Below, piece after piece: positions 8,192 to 27,847 of a DNA stretch of 28,879 nucleotides. The DNA is from a virus, in the IMG/VR virus record IMGVR_UViG_3300050019_000233, positions 1-28,879 of that record. The stretch is one strand, 5' to 3'. Each line of letters opens with the position of its first letter. The stretch's first letter is position 1. The notes beneath the pieces were generated by a model that saw nothing but the letters and a program-made list of their open reading frames with translations, did not search any database and was not told where the DNA came from. A program made the position numbers and the translations under genes.

Positions 8192-8430
8192 CGAGAACCT
8201 TCAAATTGGATTTCAAGGTTTCTGGGGATGAAAACGCGCTGCCGTTCTTTACACAAGTGCAGCGCTCCATCTATTTCATGCGGCATTTTACATACGACCT
8301 CTGGTCTGACCACCGACAGCTTATCGTGGTCGAGATTCCTCCAAACTGTCTTGGAGTTAGACCGTCTCCGTCCAGTGGAATCGGCTGGCTTCGCTACCTC
8401 GTATCCGTAGCTCTGGCGTGCCGATAGCAT
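8188..8430 (-). CDS. Hypothetical protein upstream of dUTPase
   Basis: An 80-residue basic protein with no recognised domain. It ends in an ATGA overlap with the dUTPase start, which supports it being real. Its ATG (8430-8428) and the ATG of the truncated tnpB on the other strand (8429-8431) share the palindrome CATG. This means the TnpB element abuts its very first codon and may have cut off a longer N terminus or its promoter. The promoter of this operon would have to lie inside the TnpB element. Confidence 0.5.
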
Positions 8431-8971
8431 GTCCTATCGCGCCCACAAAATAAGACTCTACCCGACTCCAGAACAAGAGAGATCGTTCGTGCAATCTTGC
8501 GGAGCGGCCAGATTTGCCTACAACTGGGGCTTGGCTAGGTGGACCGAACTCTACGCAAAAGGAGAGAAAGTCGACAAGTTCAGTCTCCGTCGAGAATTTA
8601 ACGCGTTGAAGAAAACTGAGTTCGCGTGGGCAAGAGAAGTTACCTCGCGCGCCCCGATGAATTCGCTACTCCAGCTAGGTGACGCGTTTACGCGTTTCTC
8701 TAAGAAACAAGCTGGCCGTCCGGTCGTCGCCGACCGTTTCTTTCCATCGTCAAAACGTTGCCATGCTTGCGGAAAAATCAACCATGCGTTGGAATTAGAA
8801 CGAAACTGGACTTGTTCTTGCGGTACGTATCATGATCGTGATTTCAACGCAGCCATGAACCTAAAACTATTTCCTATGTTGGAAACCGCGGCTAGATTGG
8901 CCGTGTCAGCCTGTGGAGACTTGGACGGCCGGTCGACGAAGCAGGAATTTAACCCCTTAATTGGAGGATAA
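8429..8971 (+). CDS. Internally deleted TnpB-like protein, predicted nuclease-dead
   Basis: This 180-residue protein equals residues 1 to about 97 and about 308 to 390 of the full-length TnpB at 17380-18552. It keeps the N terminus (RLYPTPEQ), the zinc finger (CHACG and CSCG) and the RuvC-III HDRD motif. The part carrying the RuvC-I Asp and RuvC-II Glu is missing, so it cannot form the normal nuclease site. The deletion is in frame and the rest has no stops, so the shortened protein may still be made. It may be a recent deletion relic, a competitor of the full-length TnpB, or a guide-RNA-binding regulator. The sequence does not decide which. Its last codons GGA GGA TAA form an SD for the next gene. 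Confidence 0.75.
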
Positions 8972-9305: not shown

Positions 9306-9601
9306 GCAAGACAGTAGAGCGCCTAATAGGTTCATTCATCGAACCTGCGTCATCTATCCACCCGTTGGCAGAGATAGTCGAACTTAAGCTTCAGAAGAGC
9401 GCAGAAGTGAGACTATTTCTGTCAAGTCTCCAAGAAGATCCTCCGGTAAGAGGACTGAGAGTCCTCCGAGTGACAGAAAATAGCGCAGAATGCGCCTGTC
9501 CTTTCAGCACTAAGGACCACGAAAGTCCAAGCTATCTTCACTCAGAGGTGAGGTTCCGCGTTAACCTTGCTGATGAGCAATGCTCGATTCTGCCCTTTTG
9601 A
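9302..9601 (+). CDS. Hypothetical protein
   Basis: A 99-residue protein starting at GTG 9302, which overlaps the previous stop by 4 bases and has GGAGGAG just upstream, one of the few good SDs here. The middle is rich in Leu and Val. Two cysteines (CAC) and a histidine (KDHESPSYLHSE) occur near residues 64-80, which could be a small metal site. No family is recognised. The 3' end overlaps the convergent gene at 9561-9809 by 41 bases. Confidence 0.6.
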   Translation: MSKTVERLIGSFIEPASSIHPLAEIVELKLQKSAEVRLFLSSLQEDPPVRGLRVLRVTENSAECACPFSTKDHESPSYLHSEVRFRVNLADEQCSILPF

Positions 9602-9809
9602 GCAGTGGATTGTCCAGTTTAGACGCCGGTTCCAGGTAAGCTAACCGGCCTGATAAGTAGTCCATGATGATCTTGCGCGCGAATAGGTTCACGGACGTTA
9701 TGCCGACAATCGGCACAGACTCAAAGTCTTTGATCAATGTTGCGTCAGAGCTCGTCGGAAGACGAAAAATGTACACGCCTGTTTTATTTTCACGAGGTTT
9801 CTTTGCCAT
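9561..9809 (-). CDS. Hypothetical small basic protein
   Basis: An 82-residue protein beginning MAKKPRENKTG, with a hydrophobic and charged middle (VNLFARKIIMDYLSG) that may form a helix. No domain is recognised. It has its own candidate promoter at 9844-9875 pointing leftward, with a TTGTTTAC box and ATAGTG 17 bases further. It converges on the gene at 9302-9601. Confidence 0.55.
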   Translation of the reverse strand: MAKKPRENKTGVYIFRLPTSSDATLIKDFESVPIVGITSVNLFARKIIMDYLSGRLAYLEPASKLDNPLLKRAESSIAHQQG

Positions 9810-9843: not shown

Positions 9844-9875
9844 CACTATGAACTGGAATCTTAATTTGTAAACAA
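9844..9875 (-). promoter_or_regulatory. Candidate phage promoter (TTGTTTAC box) for the gene at 9561-9809
   Basis: On the minus strand TTGTTTACA is followed after 17 bases by ATAGTG. The same spacing and a nearly identical second box (ATAGTC) are found at 22121-22152. The site lies in the 70-base divergent gap before the portal gene. A 10-bp palindrome CTGTATACAG (9833-9842) lies next to it. Confidence 0.4.
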
Positions 9876-12754: not shown

Positions 12755-12774
12755 CGGTACAAGTAATTAGAAAT

Positions 12775-14319
12775 ATGTCTTCTGGGATCGTACTCATCCA
12801 ACCAATCTCCATTCCGCAGTCGGCCGCAGAAGACTTCGCTGGAGGTGACGTGCGCCACGTTTCATCGATAGCCGACGCAATAACTGGCGATGCGCTGTCT
12901 AAGTCAACGCGCCAACTTGCGTACCGAGACGTCCTTCTGTCAATGAAGGTAAATGAGCTGATTGAGGCCGTCAACAACAAGGACCAGTTTATCAACCTTC
13001 CTACTGTAGCGACGACGCTGCCGGCGGGAGCGGTTCAGGTCCTCACCAATTTTAGGATTCCTCCAGGTTTTGAAGCGCGAGTGCTGAACGCTGTCGTGTC
13101 GTCGGTTCCTGCGTCGTCGATTAAGCTGACGATCGGATACAACAGCAACTTGTTTGGATCGACTGCATTTAGCACAGAGGCGGTTGTGACTCTGTCGGAG
13201 TTTGTATCAGGCACGTCATTCTACGGAACCGGCGAGTTTGTTGTTCAAGTCACAAACGTCAGCTCAAGGACGGCGACGTGCACGGCATCAATCGCGTTAA
13301 CGATGCGCCCAGTTGCAGCACAGTCAGGAGGAATTATTGGACCTGGAGCTGTTGGTCCAAAGGGAGACAAAGGCGATAAAGGAGACAAAGGAGACCAGGG
13401 AAATCCAGGATCTCCAGGTTCTTCCGGTCCTCTTGGCGCATCATGGAGAGGTCCATGGGATGCAGGAAGCAACTTCTCTGCACGTGACATGACCGAGTGG
13501 ATGGGATCATCTTGGTTTGCAAAGGTTCCAAACGTTAACGTTCAGCCTCCAGGTGACCCGTTGACAGGTTCATCTACGTGGGATCTTGTTTCGTCTATTG
13601 GAGCACAAGGAACGGTAGGACCACAGGGATCACGAGGCGATAAGGGCGACCAAGGCAACGCCGGAATGAACGGTTCAAACGGCGGACAGGGCGACCCAGG
13701 CATTGGATTCACAGGAGCTGGAAGTTACCAGAGTGACTTTACGTATGGACCCTATGAAGTCGTGTACTACGACGTAGGCATCAACAGGTTTTCCTATTTT
13801 TCTACAACGAATATAGGCACAAACACTCCTCCACCAACCGATGGTTGGTCACCGTTGTTTGGGCCAATCGTGGGGGCTGCTTATTCTCGCTGTGTCGGCT
13901 CAACGTCCACAATTACTGGATCTGGGTTTTTATCGACTTCAGCCATCGGGCTGTATGGCACGATCCCGAGCGGGTCAAACACTTCTCAGATGCCGTGGAT
14001 AGAGTCGTCCGTAAATGGAGGCCCTCCTGGTTTTGGTTTTAACGGAATTAGCCACATCAGGTCGACAAAACGCGCCATGTTTCGTGGTCTTTTGACGATC
14101 AATCTTCCGACAGTGTCAGACGGTCTCAGCCAAAATTGGACAACCGACGACGTTGATATTCATGTCTCTAACCATGGCACAATCGCGTTGAACGGAAGCG
14201 TCATGCCGGCGGTTGAAGTTGTGTCTCTCGACGGGGCTTCATTCACCGTCACAAACAACTCTTTGCCGCAGTCACAGGTACAAATCACAGTCAGTGGACA
14301 AAAGCTATGGCCTGAATAA
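12775..14319 (+). CDS. Collagen-like tail fibre/appendage protein
   Basis: In the 514-residue protein an N-terminal alpha/beta region (1-185) is followed by Gly-X-Y repeats near 195-220 (GPKGDKGDKGDKGDQG) and again near 280-310. Between and after them are two modules of carbohydrate-binding type with W-x-G-x-W and a spaced aromatic pattern (SWRGPWDAGSNF near 223; GAGSYQSDFTYGPYEVVYY near 320). The C-terminal 150 residues are beta-rich and probably form the receptor-binding tip. Collagen-like segments form triple helices in phage fibres. It closes the portal-baseplate operon and converges, four bases apart, on the paralogous fibre genes. Confidence 0.8.
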   Translation: MSSGIVLIQPISIPQSAAEDFAGGDVRHVSSIADAITGDALSKSTRQLAYRDVLLSMKVNELIEAVNNKDQFINLPTVATTLPAGAVQVLTNFRIPPGFEARVLNAVVSSVPASSIKLTIGYNSNLFGSTAFSTEAVVTLSEFVSGTSFYGTGEFVVQVTNVSSRTATCTASIALTMRPVAAQSGGIIGPGAVGPKGDKGDKGDKGDQGNPGSPGSSGPLGASWRGPWDAGSNFSARDMTEWMGSSWFAKVPNVNVQPPGDPLTGSSTWDLVSSIGAQGTVGPQGSRGDKGDQGNAGMNGSNGGQGDPGIGFTGAGSYQSDFTYGPYEVVYYDVGINRFSYFSTTNIGTNTPPPTDGWSPLFGPIVGAAYSRCVGSTSTITGSGFLSTSAIGLYGTIPSGSNTSQMPWIESSVNGGPPGFGFNGISHIRSTKRAMFRGLLTINLPTVSDGLSQNWTTDDVDIHVSNHGTIALNGSVMPAVEVVSLDGASFTVTNNSLPQSQVQITVSGQKLWPE

Positions 14320-15619: not shown

Positions 15620-15940
15620 TCACTCCGCAGGAGGAGGCGGGAGCATGTCATCGACTTCCGGTTTGATTTCCGGAGAAATGTCAGCTTCAGGATCAGCGTC
15701 ATCGATTTTTTTATCGATCTCGTCGTCTGAACCACGGGCATCTTCATCTTTTTTCTTCTTGCTGTCTTCGCCAGGACCAGGAAGACGATCGACGTGCCAT
15801 TCAAACGAGCGCCTAAGTTCGTCAGCGACAGCGCCTTCTCCACCGGCGCGCAGAGCGTCAGCAAGTGTTTTGAGCTCAAGATAGGACAGTTTTGCGGTAT
15901 AGACGTCAAATGTGTCCTGTGAAGCTTTCTTGATTTCCAT
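15620..15940 (-). CDS. Small acidic protein with disordered C terminus
   Basis: The 106 residues begin MEIKKASQDTFDVYTAKLSY and form a helical first half, then a highly charged tail (KKKKDEDARGSDDEIDKKID) ending in PPPPAE. No family is recognised. Placed first in a fibre operon, it could be a chaperone or adaptor. Its leader and first 13 codons are duplicated at 781-834 in front of a decayed gene, so this N-terminal cassette has been copied between loci. Confidence 0.6.
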   Translation of the reverse strand: MEIKKASQDTFDVYTAKLSYLELKTLADALRAGGEGAVADELRRSFEWHVDRLPGPGEDSKKKKDEDARGSDDEIDKKIDDADPEADISPEIKPEVDDMLPPPPAE

Positions 15941-15955
15941 GGTGACATAACTACG
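15902..15955. repeat. 54-bp dispersed repeat, copy 2
   Basis: It matches 781-834 at 52 of 54 positions. It spans the leader and first 13 codons of the gene at 15620-15940. Conservation of the untranslated part as well suggests a recent copying event or a shared expression signal. Confidence 0.85.
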
Positions 15956-17319: not shown

Positions 17320-17351
17320 TTGTTTACATTAGTGGAATAACTGCCAAGTTC
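17320..17351 (+). promoter_or_regulatory. Candidate promoter box upstream of TnpB element C
   Basis: TTGTTTACA starts three bases after the glycosyltransferase stop. At the spacing seen in the two better sites the second box reads AAGTTC, a weak match. It would drive tnpB C and the neck gene. Confidence 0.3.
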
Positions 17352-17379: not shown

Positions 17380-18552
17380 ATGCATCTCTCCCACAAAATT
17401 CGGCTCTATCCGACTCCAGAACAAGAGAGTCAATTTGTGCAATCTTGCGGAGCGGCCAGATTTGCCTACAACTGGGGGTTGGCCAGGTGGACTGAGCTCT
17501 ACGGAAAAGGAGAGAAAGTAGACAAATTTAGTCTACGGCGAGAGTTCAACGCGTTGAAGAAAACCGAATTGGCGTGGGCCAATTCGGTCACTTCCCGCGC
17601 CCCGATGAACGCACTTCTAAATTTGGGAACGGCCTTCCATAATTTTTTCAAGAAGAAAGCAGGTTACCCTACCTTCAAAAAGAAGGGAAAGTGTCAGGAC
17701 AGCTTCATGATTGAAGGAGCCTTTGTCAAGTTCGAATCAAAGAAACTGCTCGTCACTAAAATCGGTTGGGTCAAGTGCGCTGAAGAGTTTCGTTTCAAAG
17801 AAAACGTTTCAATTTATTCGTTAGTAATCAAGAGGATAGCCGACAGATGGTACGGCGTCGTGACTGTTAAACTCGAAGATAAACCCGCTGAAATTGCCGA
17901 TAAACAAAGCGATTCCGTCGGCGTAGATTTGGGTTTGACGACGTTTGCAACCTTGTCTAACGGGATGAAGGTCGAGCATCCGCGTTTCCTCAAGAATTCG
18001 TTGAAGAAATTGAAACGGTTGAACCAAAACTTGGCACGAAAAACAAAAGATTCTGCCAACGGGCGGGATGCGAGAATTCGGTTGTCACGCTGTTATGCGT
18101 CGATAGCAAATAAACGCAAGACGTTCATCGACAAACTCGTTAAGTACTTGTTTGACAATTTTAATAGGGTCGTCATTGAAGACTTGAACGTTGAAGGAAT
18201 AGCTCAGTTCGGAAACTTGGCGAGGTCGGTTTATGATTCGGCGTGGAGACTTTTTAGGACGACTTTGGAATTGAAATTCAAAGGAACTTCGAAGGAAGTT
18301 ATCGTCGCTGACCGTTTCTTCCCATCGTCAAAACGCTGCCATGCATGCGGAAAAGTTAATCATGCGCTGACGTTGGCTGACCGAGACTGGACTTGCTCCT
18401 GTGGAACGCGCCACGACCGTGACTTCAACGCGGCGATGAACCTAAAACTATTTCCTATGTTGGAAAACGCGGCTAGATTGGCCGTGTCAGCCTGTGGAGA
18501 CTTGGATGGCCGGTCGATGAAACAGGAATTTAACCCCTTATTTGGAGGATAA
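17380..18552 (+). CDS. tnpB: RNA-guided endonuclease TnpB, intact
   Basis: The 390-residue protein has the TnpB N terminus ([10 protein letters not shown]), RuvC-I GVDLGL (Asp183), RuvC-II IEDL (Glu267), a zinc finger (Cys320, Cys323, Cys339, Cys341) and RuvC-III HDRD (345-348). It is therefore a plausible active RNA-guided nuclease. It is the full-length relative of the truncated copy at 8429-8971, with runs of near-identical DNA at both ends but many silent differences between them. It is more distant from the TnpB at 923-2065. The final GGA GGA TAA acts as SD for the neck gene. It separates the glycosyltransferase from the neck gene as a free-standing mobile gene. Confidence 0.92.
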   Translation: MHLSHKIRLYPTPEQESQFVQSCGAARFAYNWGLARWTELYGKGEKVDKFSLRREFNALKKTELAWANSVTSRAPMNALLNLGTAFHNFFKKKAGYPTFKKKGKCQDSFMIEGAFVKFESKKLLVTKIGWVKCAEEFRFKENVSIYSLVIKRIADRWYGVVTVKLEDKPAEIADKQSDSVGVDLGLTTFATLSNGMKVEHPRFLKNSLKKLKRLNQNLARKTKDSANGRDARIRLSRCYASIANKRKTFIDKLVKYLFDNFNRVVIEDLNVEGIAQFGNLARSVYDSAWRLFRTTLELKFKGTSKEVIVADRFFPSSKRCHACGKVNHALTLADRDWTCSCGTRHDRDFNAAMNLKLFPMLENAARLAVSACGDLDGRSMKQEFNPLFGG

Positions 18553-20375: not shown

Positions 20376-20505
20376 GAGATCTCTTTTCTGGCAAGTTGTC
20401 TTGAAGATTTCTTGTCACGGCGTAACGGCGCCGGTGAGGAGTGTCTTTCGACTTTCGACAACCAGCGTAACCTGTCATCTCCCTCTTTGTCGCGAGTGGT
20501 TTCAT
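20365..20505 (-). CDS. 46-residue basic protein between helicase and next gene
   Basis: A short frame fills the 126-base gap after the helicase. Its ATG (20505-20503) overlaps the helicase stop as ATGA, and its TGA (20365-20367) overlaps the next gene's start by 11 bases. The peptide is rich in Lys, Arg and His (residues 21-33 include DTPHRRRYAVTRN). The exact fit argues for a real gene, but its length allows chance. Confidence 0.4.
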   Translation of the reverse strand: MKPLATKREMTGYAGCRKSKDTPHRRRYAVTRNLQDNLPEKRSHAH

Positions 20506-22100
20506 TTATTTCTGCCATCCTTTATCGCGTCTTTGAACCAATTCGGGAACATGTATTCAGCCTTTCTAAAGAGAGTCCAAAAATCGTCGTCAAGGATGTA
20601 CGTCACCGAATGGTCTGTAGAACTCCGGGTTGACCTACCACAGGTTTGGATGATGGCCTTGACCGTTTCACAACTGTACCAGGATGGATCGCGTTCTGCT
20701 TTCGCTTTGACCTGCGCGTCACCCAAACTTGCATAAGGTATTTTTGGCAGAATTTGCCAACGGCACATGTCGTCCTTGAAGTCAAACCCTTCCGTCATCG
20801 ACGGAGTGATCAGGATCCCGCCCGGCATCGACGAGTGAAGTGCACAAGCGTCCTCGCGCTCAGTTGCTTTACGCGGGAAGATCAACCGGTGTGCGTGTGG
20901 ACCAACGCTCAAGCGCCGATAGATTTTGTCACAGATGTCATAGGAGTGACCGTGGATGATGCCTCGGGTGTCCGTGTGCTTGTTGACGATCTTCTCGACT
21001 GCGAGTAGGAGTGCTGGCATGGTTTGCTCTTGGCACCTCCGTGACATCGAACCAACCCCAAACACAATGATCGGCCTGTTTTCAACCGGGAAATCGCTGG
21101 CCAGTCTGCACATTGGAGTCTGATCAGGGTCGAGTCCAAGTGACCGGCAGAAGATCTGTTTCTCTCCTGGATACGCAGATGCGTAGACGCGTAAAGATGC
21201 GCCATCATCGACCATCTCTTTCTTAAAAGGTGCGGCAAAAAGCGGGCGAGCGATATACTCAACTTTTCCGCTCTTGGTCTCCTCCTTCCAAAACACCCAG
21301 TCGTCTGGTTTTGAGCGAGCGTCTTCAATGGCGCGTCTAATCTTACTAATATGCTGGTCAAGTGCCCACACGTCTCTGGCAAGATCATCTTTGCCCTGAC
21401 CCTCAGCCAGCATCCTCAAAACAGTGAGTCGGTCGTCCGTTTCCTTAAGGTAGACTTCAGCCAACCAGTCGAGCAGTTCGAACAGGTTCCCCATTGGCGG
21501 AAACTTCGATAAAGTCGGCGCAAACTTTTCAAGCATGTCTTCTGACACTTTTAGGTCGACGAACGAAATTATGTTGCGCTCTAGGCCGTGACATTCATCT
21601 AGTGCCAACACCTGCCGTTTCTCTAGCTTTCCAACGTAACGCCTTTCAGAGAAAAAGTACGCATAATTCGTGACGGCAATCGTTGAGCTTAAAAATGCAG
21701 CTTTCGCTTGTTTGTAAGGGCATGAAGACGACCCACACTTCTTAAGCGAGCCAAATCCGCAATTAGCGTTAGTCGAGCACTCATACTCTACCGAAGACTT
21801 AAGCGACCGCATGTGACCAAGTCCAGGTAGAAAACGGGGGATGTCAGCCTCGAGTTGGTTTTGTAGCAACTTCTGCGCCGTAAGATAAAAACCTCCGCCC
21901 ACACCCTCCAATTCAGGCACCTCCGCTTTGGCCCAGTTACAGACCGTTGATAACACTAGCGATTTTCCACAACCCGTCGGTCCTTGAAAGATGATGTCGC
22001 GATACCCAGCCCGCACAGACTTCTCGATGAACAAAAGAGCCTTCTCTTGGCCAAGTCGCATCTTCTCAAGCGGGAAATAGTCTAAGATACTTTTGGCCAT
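20502..22100 (-). CDS. DinG/Rad3-like DNA helicase with predicted iron-sulphur cluster
   Basis: A superfamily 2 helicase acting in replication, repair or recombination. The 532-residue protein has Walker A GPTGCGKS (40-47), a set of four cysteines at 108, 114, 122 and 127, spaced as in XPD/DinG iron-sulphur domains, a DECH box (168-171) and a motif VI segment GRSTRSSTD near 490. XPD-type enzymes unwind 5' to 3'. The start at 22100 is preceded by a divergent intergenic gap of 111 bases. It leads a leftward operon of six overlapping genes. Confidence 0.85.
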   Translation of the reverse strand: MAKSILDYFPLEKMRLGQEKALLFIEKSVRAGYRDIIFQGPTGCGKSLVLSTVCNWAKAEVPELEGVGGGFYLTAQKLLQNQLEADIPRFLPGLGHMRSLKSSVEYECSTNANCGFGSLKKCGSSSCPYKQAKAAFLSSTIAVTNYAYFFSERRYVGKLEKRQVLALDECHGLERNIISFVDLKVSEDMLEKFAPTLSKFPPMGNLFELLDWLAEVYLKETDDRLTVLRMLAEGQGKDDLARDVWALDQHISKIRRAIEDARSKPDDWVFWKEETKSGKVEYIARPLFAAPFKKEMVDDGASLRVYASAYPGEKQIFCRSLGLDPDQTPMCRLASDFPVENRPIIVFGVGSMSRRCQEQTMPALLLAVEKIVNKHTDTRGIIHGHSYDICDKIYRRLSVGPHAHRLIFPRKATEREDACALHSSMPGGILITPSMTEGFDFKDDMCRWQILPKIPYASLGDAQVKAKAERDPSWYSCETVKAIIQTCGRSTRSSTDHSVTYILDDDFWTLFRKAEYMFPNWFKDAIKDGRNK

Positions 22101-22120: not shown

Positions 22121-22152
22121 TTGTTTACTTTTTCTGTTATAAGGCGATAGTC
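22121..22152 (+). promoter_or_regulatory. Candidate phage promoter before the 22.2-25.5 kb operon
   Basis: TTGTTTACT followed after 17 bases by ATAGTC, with a T-rich spacer. It has the same geometry as the site at 9844-9875. It lies 60 bases before the ATG at 22212 in the divergent gap. Confidence 0.4.
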
Positions 22153-22211
22153 ATGACCATGATCAGCCAAAGAACCACGTGATGAGGTTGCGCCATAGTT
22201 AAACAAAGCTT

Positions 22212-23036
22212 ATGCCAAAGGACCTCTTAAAATTCCTGTTCGAAGATTCGTTCAAACCGACTAGCGATGAGTCAATCTCTGACTTCTTCGAGAAGCTCAG
22301 TGAGATCGAGAACCTTGAAGTCAAGTCAGGACCTCTCAAGAAAGCATTGAAGGCATTGGGTTACGCTGGAGACGTTTGTGCGAAACCCGATGACACTGCT
22401 GAGATCTGTGTTGACAACGCAAAAGACTACTCTGAGCTGGTTGGTTTGATCAAGAGCCCAGACAGCCTTCTTGCTCTTGCCGAACTCGGTTGGGTTCCTA
22501 TCTTGAAAGATGACGATCAGGATGCACTGGCTGCGAAGCCTAACTTTGTGATCGGTTTCATCTCCATTTCTGATCCTACGCCGTCTGACGACGACAAGAT
22601 CGCTGACCTTGAGAAGCTTCTCAAGGACGCCAACGATGCCCAGCTTGATGACAAAGAGGACGGCATAGGCGCTGATCTCGATGCTGGAAAGCTTCCAGAC
22701 GGAAAGAAGAAAGACCTGACAGTTCCAGTTGTAAAGGATCCGAAGAAAGCGATGCACGAAGAAAAGTCAGACGAGACTCTCACCAACGACGCGAACTACG
22801 TCTGCACAACGCTTGAAGCTCAGGGACTTGACAGCGAACTCAAGGGTGATCCAGACACCGCAGAGGAAACTCTCGTCACGTGGATGAACGCTGATGAAGA
22901 AGATGCTCTCCCAGGTTTCTGGAACTTATTCTCCAACATGGAGCAAGAGGACCTCAAGAAGGTCGCTGCCAAGGTGATCGACATGCTTGGCATTGCTGGA
23001 AGACGCTACGGAAAGAATCCACAAACTGGTCGCTGA
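22212..23036 (+). CDS. Acidic protein of unknown function
   Basis: A 274-residue, strongly acidic protein. The first 100 residues look globular (LLKFLFEDSF, LKKALKALGYAGDV). The middle is a long Asp/Lys-rich, probably disordered region (DDDKIADLEKLLKDANDAQ), and a second short globular part follows (VCTTLEAQGLDSELKGD). A scaffold or prohead-core role would fit the composition, as would a DNA mimic. Neither is shown. It starts the plus-strand cluster and shares strong codon similarity with the next gene. Confidence 0.6.
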   Translation: MPKDLLKFLFEDSFKPTSDESISDFFEKLSEIENLEVKSGPLKKALKALGYAGDVCAKPDDTAEICVDNAKDYSELVGLIKSPDSLLALAELGWVPILKDDDQDALAAKPNFVIGFISISDPTPSDDDKIADLEKLLKDANDAQLDDKEDGIGADLDAGKLPDGKKKDLTVPVVKDPKKAMHEEKSDETLTNDANYVCTTLEAQGLDSELKGDPDTAEETLVTWMNADEEDALPGFWNLFSNMEQEDLKKVAAKVIDMLGIAGRRYGKNPQTGR

Positions 23037-26033: not shown

Positions 26034-26750
26034 CTACTTCTTATCTGACGCTGCTTTGTCAACCTTCTGCAATTTATGGATCATTCTACGAACGATCTCG
26101 CGTCCTGTTGACGACGTATTTTTGAACTTTTCCTTTATGACATCTTCGTGCACGTGAAGAGCAAAGTCAGCCTTGTTCAGGAGTGCCATCACGTCGGAAA
26201 TGTTGGTTGCACCTGCTTGGACACGGTTCTCCAACTTCTCAGTGTGACTTCCGATAATCGTCATCATCGCCATGAGCTCAGACGTGTTGAGATCTTCTCG
26301 AAGCGCCGCGTCAAGAAGTTTCTTCTCTAGGACGTCTCGCACGCGAAGAGACGACACCAACCGTCCGTAGTCTTTAGTCAGCAAAAGGTTGCTGATCAAC
26401 TCTGCGCGTTCCTGCTGGTTGAAAATGTACCGCTGGATCTCCTTCTGCTCTCCGGCCAAACTCTCTCCTGTCATGATTCCGTTCACGACGTTTTCTAACG
26501 TGCTTAGAAGAGGATCGTCTATTCCTGCTCCTTCCTTTTCGGCGCCAGCTCCAGCGTCATACTCCTTCTCGTTGTTCCGCGTAAGCGCCAGCGCAACTGA
26601 CCTGTCGATATTATCGCGGGTCATAACGTCGTTCACAAGGTCACCCGCAGCGTTCTTGAGCGGCCCACTTAGACCATTCAATTGGAGCGATCTCACGTAG
26701 TCTGTGAGAAAACGCACTTGAATCGGTTTTATGAATTTTGGAAATGCCAT
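26034..26750 (-). CDS. Hypothetical helical protein
   Basis: A 238-residue protein starting at ATG 26750 (MAFPKFIKPIQVRFLTDYV). A longer frame upstream has poor composition and runs through the promoter-like region. Residues 100-220 are mostly helical with heptad-like Leu spacing (RLVSSLRVRDVLEKKLLDAAL), so coiled coils are likely. The basic C terminus ends AASDKK. It might be a terminase small subunit or another packaging or scaffold protein, but I see no diagnostic motif. Confidence 0.6.
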   Translation of the reverse strand: MAFPKFIKPIQVRFLTDYVRSLQLNGLSGPLKNAAGDLVNDVMTRDNIDRSVALALTRNNEKEYDAGAGAEKEGAGIDDPLLSTLENVVNGIMTGESLAGEQKEIQRYIFNQQERAELISNLLLTKDYGRLVSSLRVRDVLEKKLLDAALREDLNTSELMAMMTIIGSHTEKLENRVQAGATNISDVMALLNKADFALHVHEDVIKEKFKNTSSTGREIVRRMIHKLQKVDKAASDKK

Positions 26751-26790
26751 CGACCTAATAAGCAGAACAAGGTGGTGAGAGCCCAGTTGT

Positions 26791-26832
26791 AAAAAGTGAA
26801 TAAACCTATCCTTGAAAATAGTTTCACTTTTT
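26791..26832. repeat. 10-bp inverted repeat upstream of the DUF932 promoter box
   Basis: AAAAAGTGAA at 26791-26800 is the exact reverse complement of TTCACTTTTT at 26823-26832, with 22 bases between. It directly abuts the TTGTTTAC box. It may be an operator, or a weak terminator for either strand. Confidence 0.45.
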
Positions 26833-26863
26833 TGTTTACATAATCTAGTAGACATGATCCTAT
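26832..26863 (+). promoter_or_regulatory. Candidate promoter box before the DUF932 gene
   Basis: TTGTTTACA preceded by a T run. The second box at a 17-base spacing reads TCCTAT and is a poor match. TATCTA three bases further is an alternative. It lies 76 bases before the ATG of the DUF932 gene. Confidence 0.35.
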
Positions 26864-26914
26864 CTAGGGTCAAGACGATCCTATTCAGTTCTAATCATCA
26901 ACTCAAACAATCCT

Positions 26915-27847
26915 ATGCCCGCAGAAATATCAGCAGTCGATTACATGGCCTCCGGTAACAACATCGTGCCGTGGCACAAGCTCGGAACCGTCGTTGACGG
27001 TCTCATGACCTCTGAAGAGGTCCTCGCCAAAGCCCGCCTCAACTGGGAAGTCAAGAAGATGCCCATTCAGGTTGTCGGCGGAAAAACCATCGCGCGTCAG
27101 TTTGCGACAGTTCGTGAAGACACCGGCGACGTTCTCGGTGTCGTGGGTCAGATCTACACGCCGATCCAGAATACGGACGGCTTGGACATCCTCGACCCTG
27201 TAATCGGCAAAGACGCAGCGTATGAAACCGCTGGATCTCTGCGCGGCGGCAAGATCGTGTGGTTCCTCGCGAGCATGAAGAAAGATTACTTCCTCGGGTC
27301 GAAAAACGACAAGATGAAGCAGTATTTCCTCGTGTATCTCTCGCACGACGGTTCGAAACCTGTCTCCGTGCGGTTCGTTAACACGCGCGTCGTTTGCATG
27401 AACACGCTTTCCGCCGCGACTCACGAGACTCCCGCTTTGGTGACGCTTCGCCACACGGTGAACTACGCCAGTAAGCTCGAACAGGTCCACCGCATCGTCG
27501 GACTCGCGGACAAACACGCGCAGGAGTTTGAGAAGATCTTCGCCACGCTCAGCCGCAAGAAGATGAGCGAGACCGCTGCTCGCGACTTCACCAAGGAAAT
27601 CTTCCCTGGCGACAAAAAGCAGAGCCGAGACATGCAGGAGCAGCTGTTCACGCTCTTCAAGTCCGGAATCGGCAACGAAGGGAAGACGCGGGCGGACATG
27701 ATGAACGGTCTCACAGAAATGATCACTCACCATAAACGCGTCCGCGCTAAAGGCGAACAAGCCATCGCCGCATCTCGGTTTGAGAACGCGCTGTTCGGCT
27801 ACGGACTGACTGTCGAAAACAAAGCGATGGAACTCCTCCTGAACTAA
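26915..27847 (+). CDS. DUF932 (phage/plasmid-like) protein
   Basis: DUF932 proteins are widespread in phages and plasmids, and their function is unknown. The 310-residue protein has the family order: an N-terminal VPWHKLGTVVDG, then LNWEVKKMPI, VVGQIYTPIQNTDG, GGKIVWFLASM, VRFVNTRVVCMNTLSAA and a C-terminal helical part ending FENALFGYGLTVENKAMELL. It appears complete. G+C, especially in third positions, looks higher than in most of the window, which may reflect strong expression or separate origin. It has its own upstream region with an inverted repeat and a promoter-like box. Confidence 0.85.
   Translation: MPAEISAVDYMASGNNIVPWHKLGTVVDGLMTSEEVLAKARLNWEVKKMPIQVVGGKTIARQFATVREDTGDVLGVVGQIYTPIQNTDGLDILDPVIGKDAAYETAGSLRGGKIVWFLASMKKDYFLGSKNDKMKQYFLVYLSHDGSKPVSVRFVNTRVVCMNTLSAATHETPALVTLRHTVNYASKLEQVHRIVGLADKHAQEFEKIFATLSRKKMSETAARDFTKEIFPGDKKQSRDMQEQLFTLFKSGIGNEGKTRADMMNGLTEMITHHKRVRAKGEQAIAASRFENALFGYGLTVENKAMELLLN

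Follow-up and report, generated by a model that had tools for sequence, protein, structure and literature searches.

The TTGTTTAC box that recurs between genes of an uncultured virus is most likely the upstream half of a T4-type early-gene promoter. For the observations as a whole, the explanation we hold with good confidence is a set of T4-type early promoters that would be read by the host RNA polymerase and, in related genomes, would often yield leaderless mRNA, alongside a separate late-type box. Enrichment, placement, conservation and two-box spacing are observed directly; transcription starts, timing and the protein that reads the box are deduced from them. TTGTTTAC would then supply the core of the -35 element, and host polymerase carrying its main sigma factor would read the promoter early in infection.

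The window, meaning the whole 28,879-base virus record that was analysed, codes for a portal of the T4 type and a gp25 baseplate protein, along with a helicase, a dUTPase, and NADAR and DUF932 proteins. Megablast with window bases 1-25000 matched no phage record, and the portal is 22-24% identical to those of the four phage records found by protein search. Relatives were gathered with the portal as query; G002, of 224,954 bases, has a portal 67-69% identical to that of the window. Gene calls come from a simple gene finder of our own rather than a standard program, and it misses small genes.

The first-pass annotation had placed TTGTTTAC at four positions in the window, and it occurs at exactly these (Table 1). 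All four copies lie outside called genes and each faces an ORF, as had been stated. Dinucleotide shuffles give an expectation of 0.69 copies (sd 0.90) and reached four in 1 of 100 cases. By the ORF list, the next start lies 58, 52, 83 and 75 bases from the boxes at 9868, 17320, 22121 and 26832, respectively. Our gene finder missed the ORF at 9561-9809 and placed two starts further in (17437 and 26945), so its calls leave just one window site with a start within 100 nt. The box at 26832 falls inside a mechanical TTG-start ORF (26034-26873), the called start of that gene being 26750. A second box, ATAGTG or ATAGTC 17 bases past TTTACA or TTTACT, had been described at two sites and is present at 9868 and 22121; in promoter register these read CATAGT and GATAGT after 16 bases. 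A [C/G]AnnnT hexamer stands at spacer 16 in three of the four sites, and the second box of the fourth, at 26832, reads TGATCCTAT. The box is unlike the T4 late element, as had also been remarked: TATAAATA has no exact match in the window, and its one-mismatch matches number 5 against 7.4 expected.

Table 1. Candidate promoter elements in the window
Element	Position	Strand	Context
-35 element TTGTTTAC	9868..9875	-	upstream of small gene 9561-9809 (-), divergent from portal gene
-10-like CATAGT	9845..9850	-	spacer 16
-35 element TTGTTTAC	17320..17327	+	after glycosyltransferase gene, upstream of tnpB gene 17380-18552
-10-like CAAGTT (weak)	17345..17350	+	spacer 16
-35 element TTGTTTAC	22121..22128	+	between helicase gene 20502-22100 (-) and gene 22212-23036 (+)
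-10-like GATAGT	22146..22151	+	spacer 16; ATAGTC of the first-pass annotation is 22147-22152
-35 element TTGTTTAC (in TTTTTGTTTACA)	26832..26839	+	upstream of DUF932 gene 26915-27847
-10-like TCCTAT	26858..26863	+	spacer 17, TGA ahead; compare TGATACTAT in T4; T4-trained model score 20.1
Late-type TAGTTA	22196..22201	+	first base 16 nt before start of 22212-23036; in G002, TAGTTA lies 19 nt ahead of the orthologous start
Late-type TAATTA	12764..12769	+	first base 11 nt before start of collagen-like gene 12775-14319
Late-type TAGTTA	15948..15953	-	first base 13 nt before start of 15620-15940

The window carries three tnpB-like genes (893-2065, 8429-8971 and 17380-18552 (+)), the second of which lacks a central OrfB_IS605 match. 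Long repeats, 83-90% identical, are common to the second and third genes, which thus seem to be separate insertions of a single element, one of the two being shortened. The third stands directly behind a TTGTTTAC box, and the counterpart box in G002 precedes a DNA helicase gene.

The box recurs throughout the genomes of relatives. G002 holds 36 copies of TTGTTTAC against 4 of the reversed word, and TGTTTACA is its most over-represented 8-mer (43 against 2.3 expected). With a position model derived from G002 sites, matches and control matches are 4:0 in the window, 43:1 in G002, 21:3 in G030, 4:0 in G047, 34:2 in G052 and 48:1 in the box-rich G049; the G002 count arises partly by construction, and the reversed-word count and the counts in other genomes are independent of it. 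The same model gives 7:2, 2:1, 1:0, 5:0 and 5:1 in the box-poor relatives G016, G015, G032, G056 and G048, and 8:3, 0:0 and 1:0 in the distant T4-like genomes G039, G044 and G045. The box lies upstream of genes far more than inside them in G002 (34 of the 36 copies outside called genes) and in G052 (32 of the 34 model matches intergenic); in G049, 27 matches are intergenic. This preference for intergenic DNA does not extend to G016 and G015, where most copies of TTGTTTAC fall within genes and the word is no promoter motif. Counts of TGTTTACA were also considered as a sign of conservation in many records and set aside, because in G016, G015, L067, L062 and L054 nearly all copies are within genes.

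Conservation of individual sites is evidenced by both synteny and alignment. Each of the four window sites is matched by a box at the corresponding junction of G002, namely beside the portal gene, after the glycosyltransferase gene, beside the helicase gene and before the DUF932 gene. Across the 12-base box region, 10, 10, 11 and 12 positions are identical between window and G002; the ungapped flanks match at 34, 35, 36 and 41 of 145 positions, about chance level. The DUF932 box is 83 nt from the start in both genomes. The portal-side box has a counterpart in G002, L001, L004 and, as GTGTTTAC, in G030, and the glycosyltransferase junction keeps its box in G002 and G030. The helicase-side box (22121) has counterparts in G002, G030, G047, G052 and G060, the last being near-identical there to G030. 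In total, 5 of 35 helicase loci have a divergent box within 250 nt; among the 30 without one, G016 has the word in the opposite direction. Chance or base composition is hardly credible as the source of this pattern: four sites are few for the window, and chance does account for G016 and G015, whose copies fall mostly within genes, but the shuffles, the reversed-word and model controls, the same-junction conservation and the results of a model trained on T4 (below) all stand against it.

The box is one part of a two-part element. Aligned copies give a consensus of a T-rich tract, GTTTACA, 16-17 nt and a -10 hexamer; in the clade G precedes TTTAC, A or T follows it, and the upstream tract is rich in T beside the box, with only a weak A preference further up. 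A fit to 63 intergenic sites (4 from the window, 40 from G002 and 19 from G030) finds a [T/C]AnnnT-like hexamer past TTTACA at 16 nt (50%) or 17 nt (36%), which together hold 86% of the weight. Its log-likelihood is 93.6, compared with a maximum of 33.7 in 30 shuffles and with 42.2 and 47.3 in displaced windows. The second box of G052, TGGTATATT, is the clearest (32 sites; 144.7 against a maximum of 32.3 in 20 shuffles) and belongs to an extended -10, with TGG preceding the hexamer. For G030 alone the -10 is marginal (31.8 against a shuffle maximum of 29.3), and the fit found none in G049 (28.1 against 32.6 in shuffles).

The genomes divide by the word found near -35 of their starts. TTTAC is in excess there in G002 (21 observed against 2.1 expected), G052 (14 against 2.1) and G030 (7 against 1.0), and the figures for TTGAC in the same genomes are 0 against 1.5, 4 against 4.3 and 3 against 0.7. 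In the box-less relatives it is TTGAC that is found near -35: 12 against 1.9 in G016, 7 against 1.0 in G015, 5 against 1.4 in G056, 5 against 0.7 in G048 and 3 against 0.8 in G032. The distant G039 (14 against 2.5) and G049 (8 against 1.8) also have TTGAC; in G049 it takes this place rather than TTTAC, with little anchoring to starts.

A different function, that of an operator for a phage regulator, is very unlikely. TGTTTACA is near-palindromic, and of 98 intergenic sites 14 have a second GTTTAC or GTAAAC within 25 bp, the expectation being about 7.9. However, this pairing excess is weak, the box keeps a fixed distance from the -10 and, in G002, G052 and G030, from start codons, and a suspected small binder protein has no supporting fold match. 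The small gene divergent from the portal gene (9561-9809 (-)) is conserved in 9 of the 14 records compared, box-less genomes among them, and in G052 three GTTTACA repeats stand ahead of its counterpart. Its product resembles a ribbon-helix-helix protein by eye; Pfam RHH_1 matches one of six copies scanned at E 0.11, the predicted model has no PDB match below E 4, and no claim is made for this identity.

Published descriptions provide the closest parallel to the two-part element. According to the available portion of PMC1524935, GTTTAC spans -36 to -31 in T4 early promoters, and their sigma-type -10 is preceded by GT-rich sequence; at -33 the preference in RB49, RB43 and Aeh1 is for G, and at -12 RB49 accepts either T or C. 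The same source describes an A-rich UP-like sequence at -40 to -44 as frequent but not universal, and reports that Alt modifies the polymerase alpha subunit in T4, that RB43 apparently has no Alt and that Alt is not strictly required. The clade shares with T4, and with the early promoters predicted for RB69, RB49, RB43, Aeh1 and 44RR, the GTTTAC -35 element and a -10 hexamer that follows it after 17-18 nt. G052 also shares the extended TG before the -10, non-structural genes lie downstream in both cases, related genomes have a GTTGAC-type variant as the T4-type group does, and G002 and G030 have T or C as the first -10 base, as in RB49. The split of the clade between TTTAC and TTGAC parallels the published preference of RB49, RB43 and Aeh1 for G in place of T.

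A two-box model trained on T4 sites alone provides a test independent of the clade. T4 itself has 44 occurrences of GTTTAC-N17-19-TAnnnT against 20 in reversed controls, many with TGTGGTACTAT or similar. In G002 the T4-only model picks out 20 sites, every one intergenic (control 1), and in G052 it picks out 27, of which 25 are intergenic (control 5). One of the four window sites, at 26832, is over the threshold (control 0); G047 has 1 (0), G049 has 7 (0) and G030 only 2 (0). Other relatives give 5 (2) in G016, 2 (2) in G015, 1 (0) in G032, 0 (1) in G056 and 2 (0) in G048, and the distant genomes give 16 (7) in G039, 0 (1) in G044 and 0 (0) in G045. T4 scores 73 matches with 31 in its control, so the threshold of this model is loose in AT-rich DNA. 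Taken together, the published GTTTAC match, the results of the T4-only model and the T-or-G parallel lead us to read the box as a T4-type early -35 element. The early pattern of T4, the T4-only model and the non-structural genes downstream likewise point to an early-promoter class read by host RNA polymerase, with no new recognition system. The first-pass annotation had called the box a candidate phage-specific promoter: the promoter-like element stands, and the phage-specific part, if it means a new recognition system, is unsupported, given that the box matches the T4 early -35 in the available text of PMC1524935 and that the T4-only model finds many of the relatives' sites. The findings suggest that this T4 element extends well beyond the cultured T4-like phages, the window's portal being 22-24% identical to those of the four phage records found, and that it occurs in genomes of 49 to 68% GC. 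Our literature search turned up no description of the box in a clade of this kind and none of leaderless T4-like phages.

The clade also differs from T4. Its upstream tract is T-rich where that of T4 is A-rich at -40 to -44, and the clade boxes lack an A-rich UP-like tract of the T4 type. Alt (phrog_802) has no match in any of 11 non-T4 records, which may be incomplete genomes, with T4 as a positive. These two differences would suit convergence, in which the boxes are ordinary promoters of a host whose main sigma factor prefers TTTACA and share no ancestry with the early promoters of T4; the canonical spacer would suit it as well. Searches for the host with tnpB returned four scattered genera and those with the ligase only diverse matches. 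Convergence is nevertheless unlikely: the G before TTTAC, the A or T after it and the TGG before the G052 -10 all match T4, the box is common to genomes of 54% and 68% GC, and the window has T4-type portal and gp25 proteins.

Recognition by a phage-encoded activator or sigma factor, as by MotA at T4 middle promoters, would make the genes behind the box middle rather than early, and we consider it quite unlikely. T4 middle promoters have a TGCTT box at -30, 11-13 nt from the -10, and are used with MotA and AsiA. The spacing of 16-17 nt in the clade is of the -35 to -10 type, unlike that of a Mot box, and G052 has a strong canonical extended -10. The MotA and AsiA families each have no match in 10 records, a weak negative in that T4 was absent as a positive control. 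Spacing and missing families together disfavour a MotA box and with it a middle promoter. Several observations suit a phage factor: in G002 and G030 conservation is higher in the -35 part than in the -10, though the core is fixed by site selection; some boxes are paired, in G030 at two places beside HTH genes; and G002 has a second sigma gene (199834-200742 (-), locus L153; Sigma70_r2, E 4.8e-13; FliA-like by eye). This sigma was rejected as the reader of the box, having no match in the eight other records compared. A phylogenetic profile, limited to called genes and hence missing small ones, yields three proteins common to G002, G030 and G052 and absent from the five box-less records G016, G015, G032, G056 and G048. 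None looks regulator-like by eye, two have collagen-like repeats, and the profile was set aside as a source of a box-specific factor.

A PHROGs scan of 28 box-gene proteins (20 of the 28 box genes of G002, and 8 from G030) matched families for 14, none structural, and left 14 without a match. The families include DNA helicase, NAD-dependent ligase, topoisomerase, RNA-binding protein, protease, phosphoesterase, ATPase, methyltransferase and two HTH proteins. This content is compatible with early transcription by host holoenzyme, which would serve DNA metabolism and other non-structural functions, and it fits the earlier suggestion that the box may serve one timing class.

A separate box precedes other genes. 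It was defined as TAnTTA, TTCTTA or TTCTAA with its first base 9-15 nt ahead of a start codon, and its counts (expected in brackets) are 31 (1.8) in G002, 68 (1.9) in G016, 47 (1.1) in G030, 32 (0.6) in G015, 14 (1.0) in G032, 18 (2.3) in G052, 32 (1.6) in G056, 16 (0.7) in G048, 28 (1.8) in G049, 5 (0.4) in G047 and 3 (0.2) in the window. The distant G039, G044 and G045 have 3 (2.3), 1 (0.3) and 0 (0.8). Among 19 genes behind such boxes, the larger ones having been chosen, 5 are structural (a head-tail adaptor, two tail fibres, a baseplate wedge and a portal). From gene content we infer that the TTGTTTAC class is early and the TAnTTA class late. Like T4 late promoters (TATAAATA, gp55), the latter has a short -10-only box and occurs in a clade with a gp55-like sigma gene; it differs in its sequence, TAnTTA or TTCTTA, and in its place 9-15 nt before starts, and the TTGTTTAC sites of the window are outside this class. 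G030 has GTTCTTTAGAAC-like inverted repeats near starts (L107 ~8016 (-), upstream of L104:7204-8439 (-) and L105:6908-7861 (-)), perhaps a variant of the TTCTTA late-type box.

The late-type box, which also abuts start codons, may be read by a gp55-like sigma factor. A protein of about 340 aa in G002, G030, G016 and G032 is a candidate: phrog_234 matches it in G030, G016 and G032 (E 8.4e-7 to 5.2e-4), and the G002 protein is homologous to these. The specificity of phrog_234 is limited, as it also matches in 7 of 14 control genomes, and phrog_12791 has no match in 9 records. The predicted fold has a mean pLDDT of 61.6; most of the 50 matches listed are titled RNA polymerase holoenzyme or sigma, the best (E 0.32) having a non-sigma title and the first sigma entry an E of 0.58. 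The protein has no PDB sequence match and, as a query, found no phage match.

The position of start codons is an unusual feature of the relatives. A called start lies 4-10 nt past the fitted -10 at 18 of 40 sites in G002, 13 of 32 in G052 and 6 of 19 in G030 (37 of 91 together), compared with 3 of 27 in G049. For T4 the corresponding count is 0 of 42, and 28 of 42 starts lie 25-44 nt past the -10. Transcription normally begins about 7 nt past the -10, so a start codon at this place predicts an mRNA that begins at or next to it. Judged from this spacing, leaderless mRNAs are predicted in the relatives, their promoters often being placed so that transcription would begin on or beside the start codon. 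Within the window, none of the four sites has a called start 36-42 nt past the start of the box; with starts further down, its sites would have short leaders, and the leaderless reading rests on the relatives.

Shine-Dalgarno motifs are few in the clade, a further difference from T4 along with the start codons often close behind the -10 in G002, G052 and G030. Shine-Dalgarno 4-mers precede 7-21% of clade genes, compared with 55-61% in the distant G039, G044 and G045 and 139 of 232 in T4. Shuffles give 9-11%; G016, G015 and G032 do not exceed this level, G002 does so slightly (12 against 9%), and G030 (18 against 11%) and the window (21 against 9%) do so to some extent. G049 and G056 have a few Shine-Dalgarno-like words near position -10. 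We lean slightly towards a scenario in which a T4-like lineage moved most of its expression to leaderless mRNA, its early and gp55-type late promoters having slid onto start codons and Shine-Dalgarno motifs having been largely given up, to match a host that translates leaderless mRNA. A likeness exists in Thermus phage phiYS40, most of whose middle and late transcripts lack a leader according to the available part of PMC3594737; the likeness is drawn from that description. In Deinococcus-Thermus, as far as the available text of PMC12340547 describes, the -10 region adjoins the start codon and yields leaderless mRNA; those are cellular genes of one phylum, whereas the clade has phage genes with a T4-type -35. 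If the leaderless reading is true, a simple rule would allow transcription starts, gene starts and timing classes to be read from the sequence of these genomes, which would also show in a natural setting how a large lytic phage works with few ribosome-binding sites.

Other features of the translation apparatus were observed in the relatives. In G002, 35 predicted tRNA genes are clustered with a tmRNA (Rfam RF00023, 95 bits) in loci L037 and L038 (~54-63 kb). tRNA genes with a CUA (amber) anticodon occur at L041:12581-12656 in G002 and L107:3447-3523 in G030. Pairs of coding-like pieces joined by TAG readthrough number 0 in the window, 1 in G002, 3 in G016 and 11 in G030, where TAG recoding is possible.
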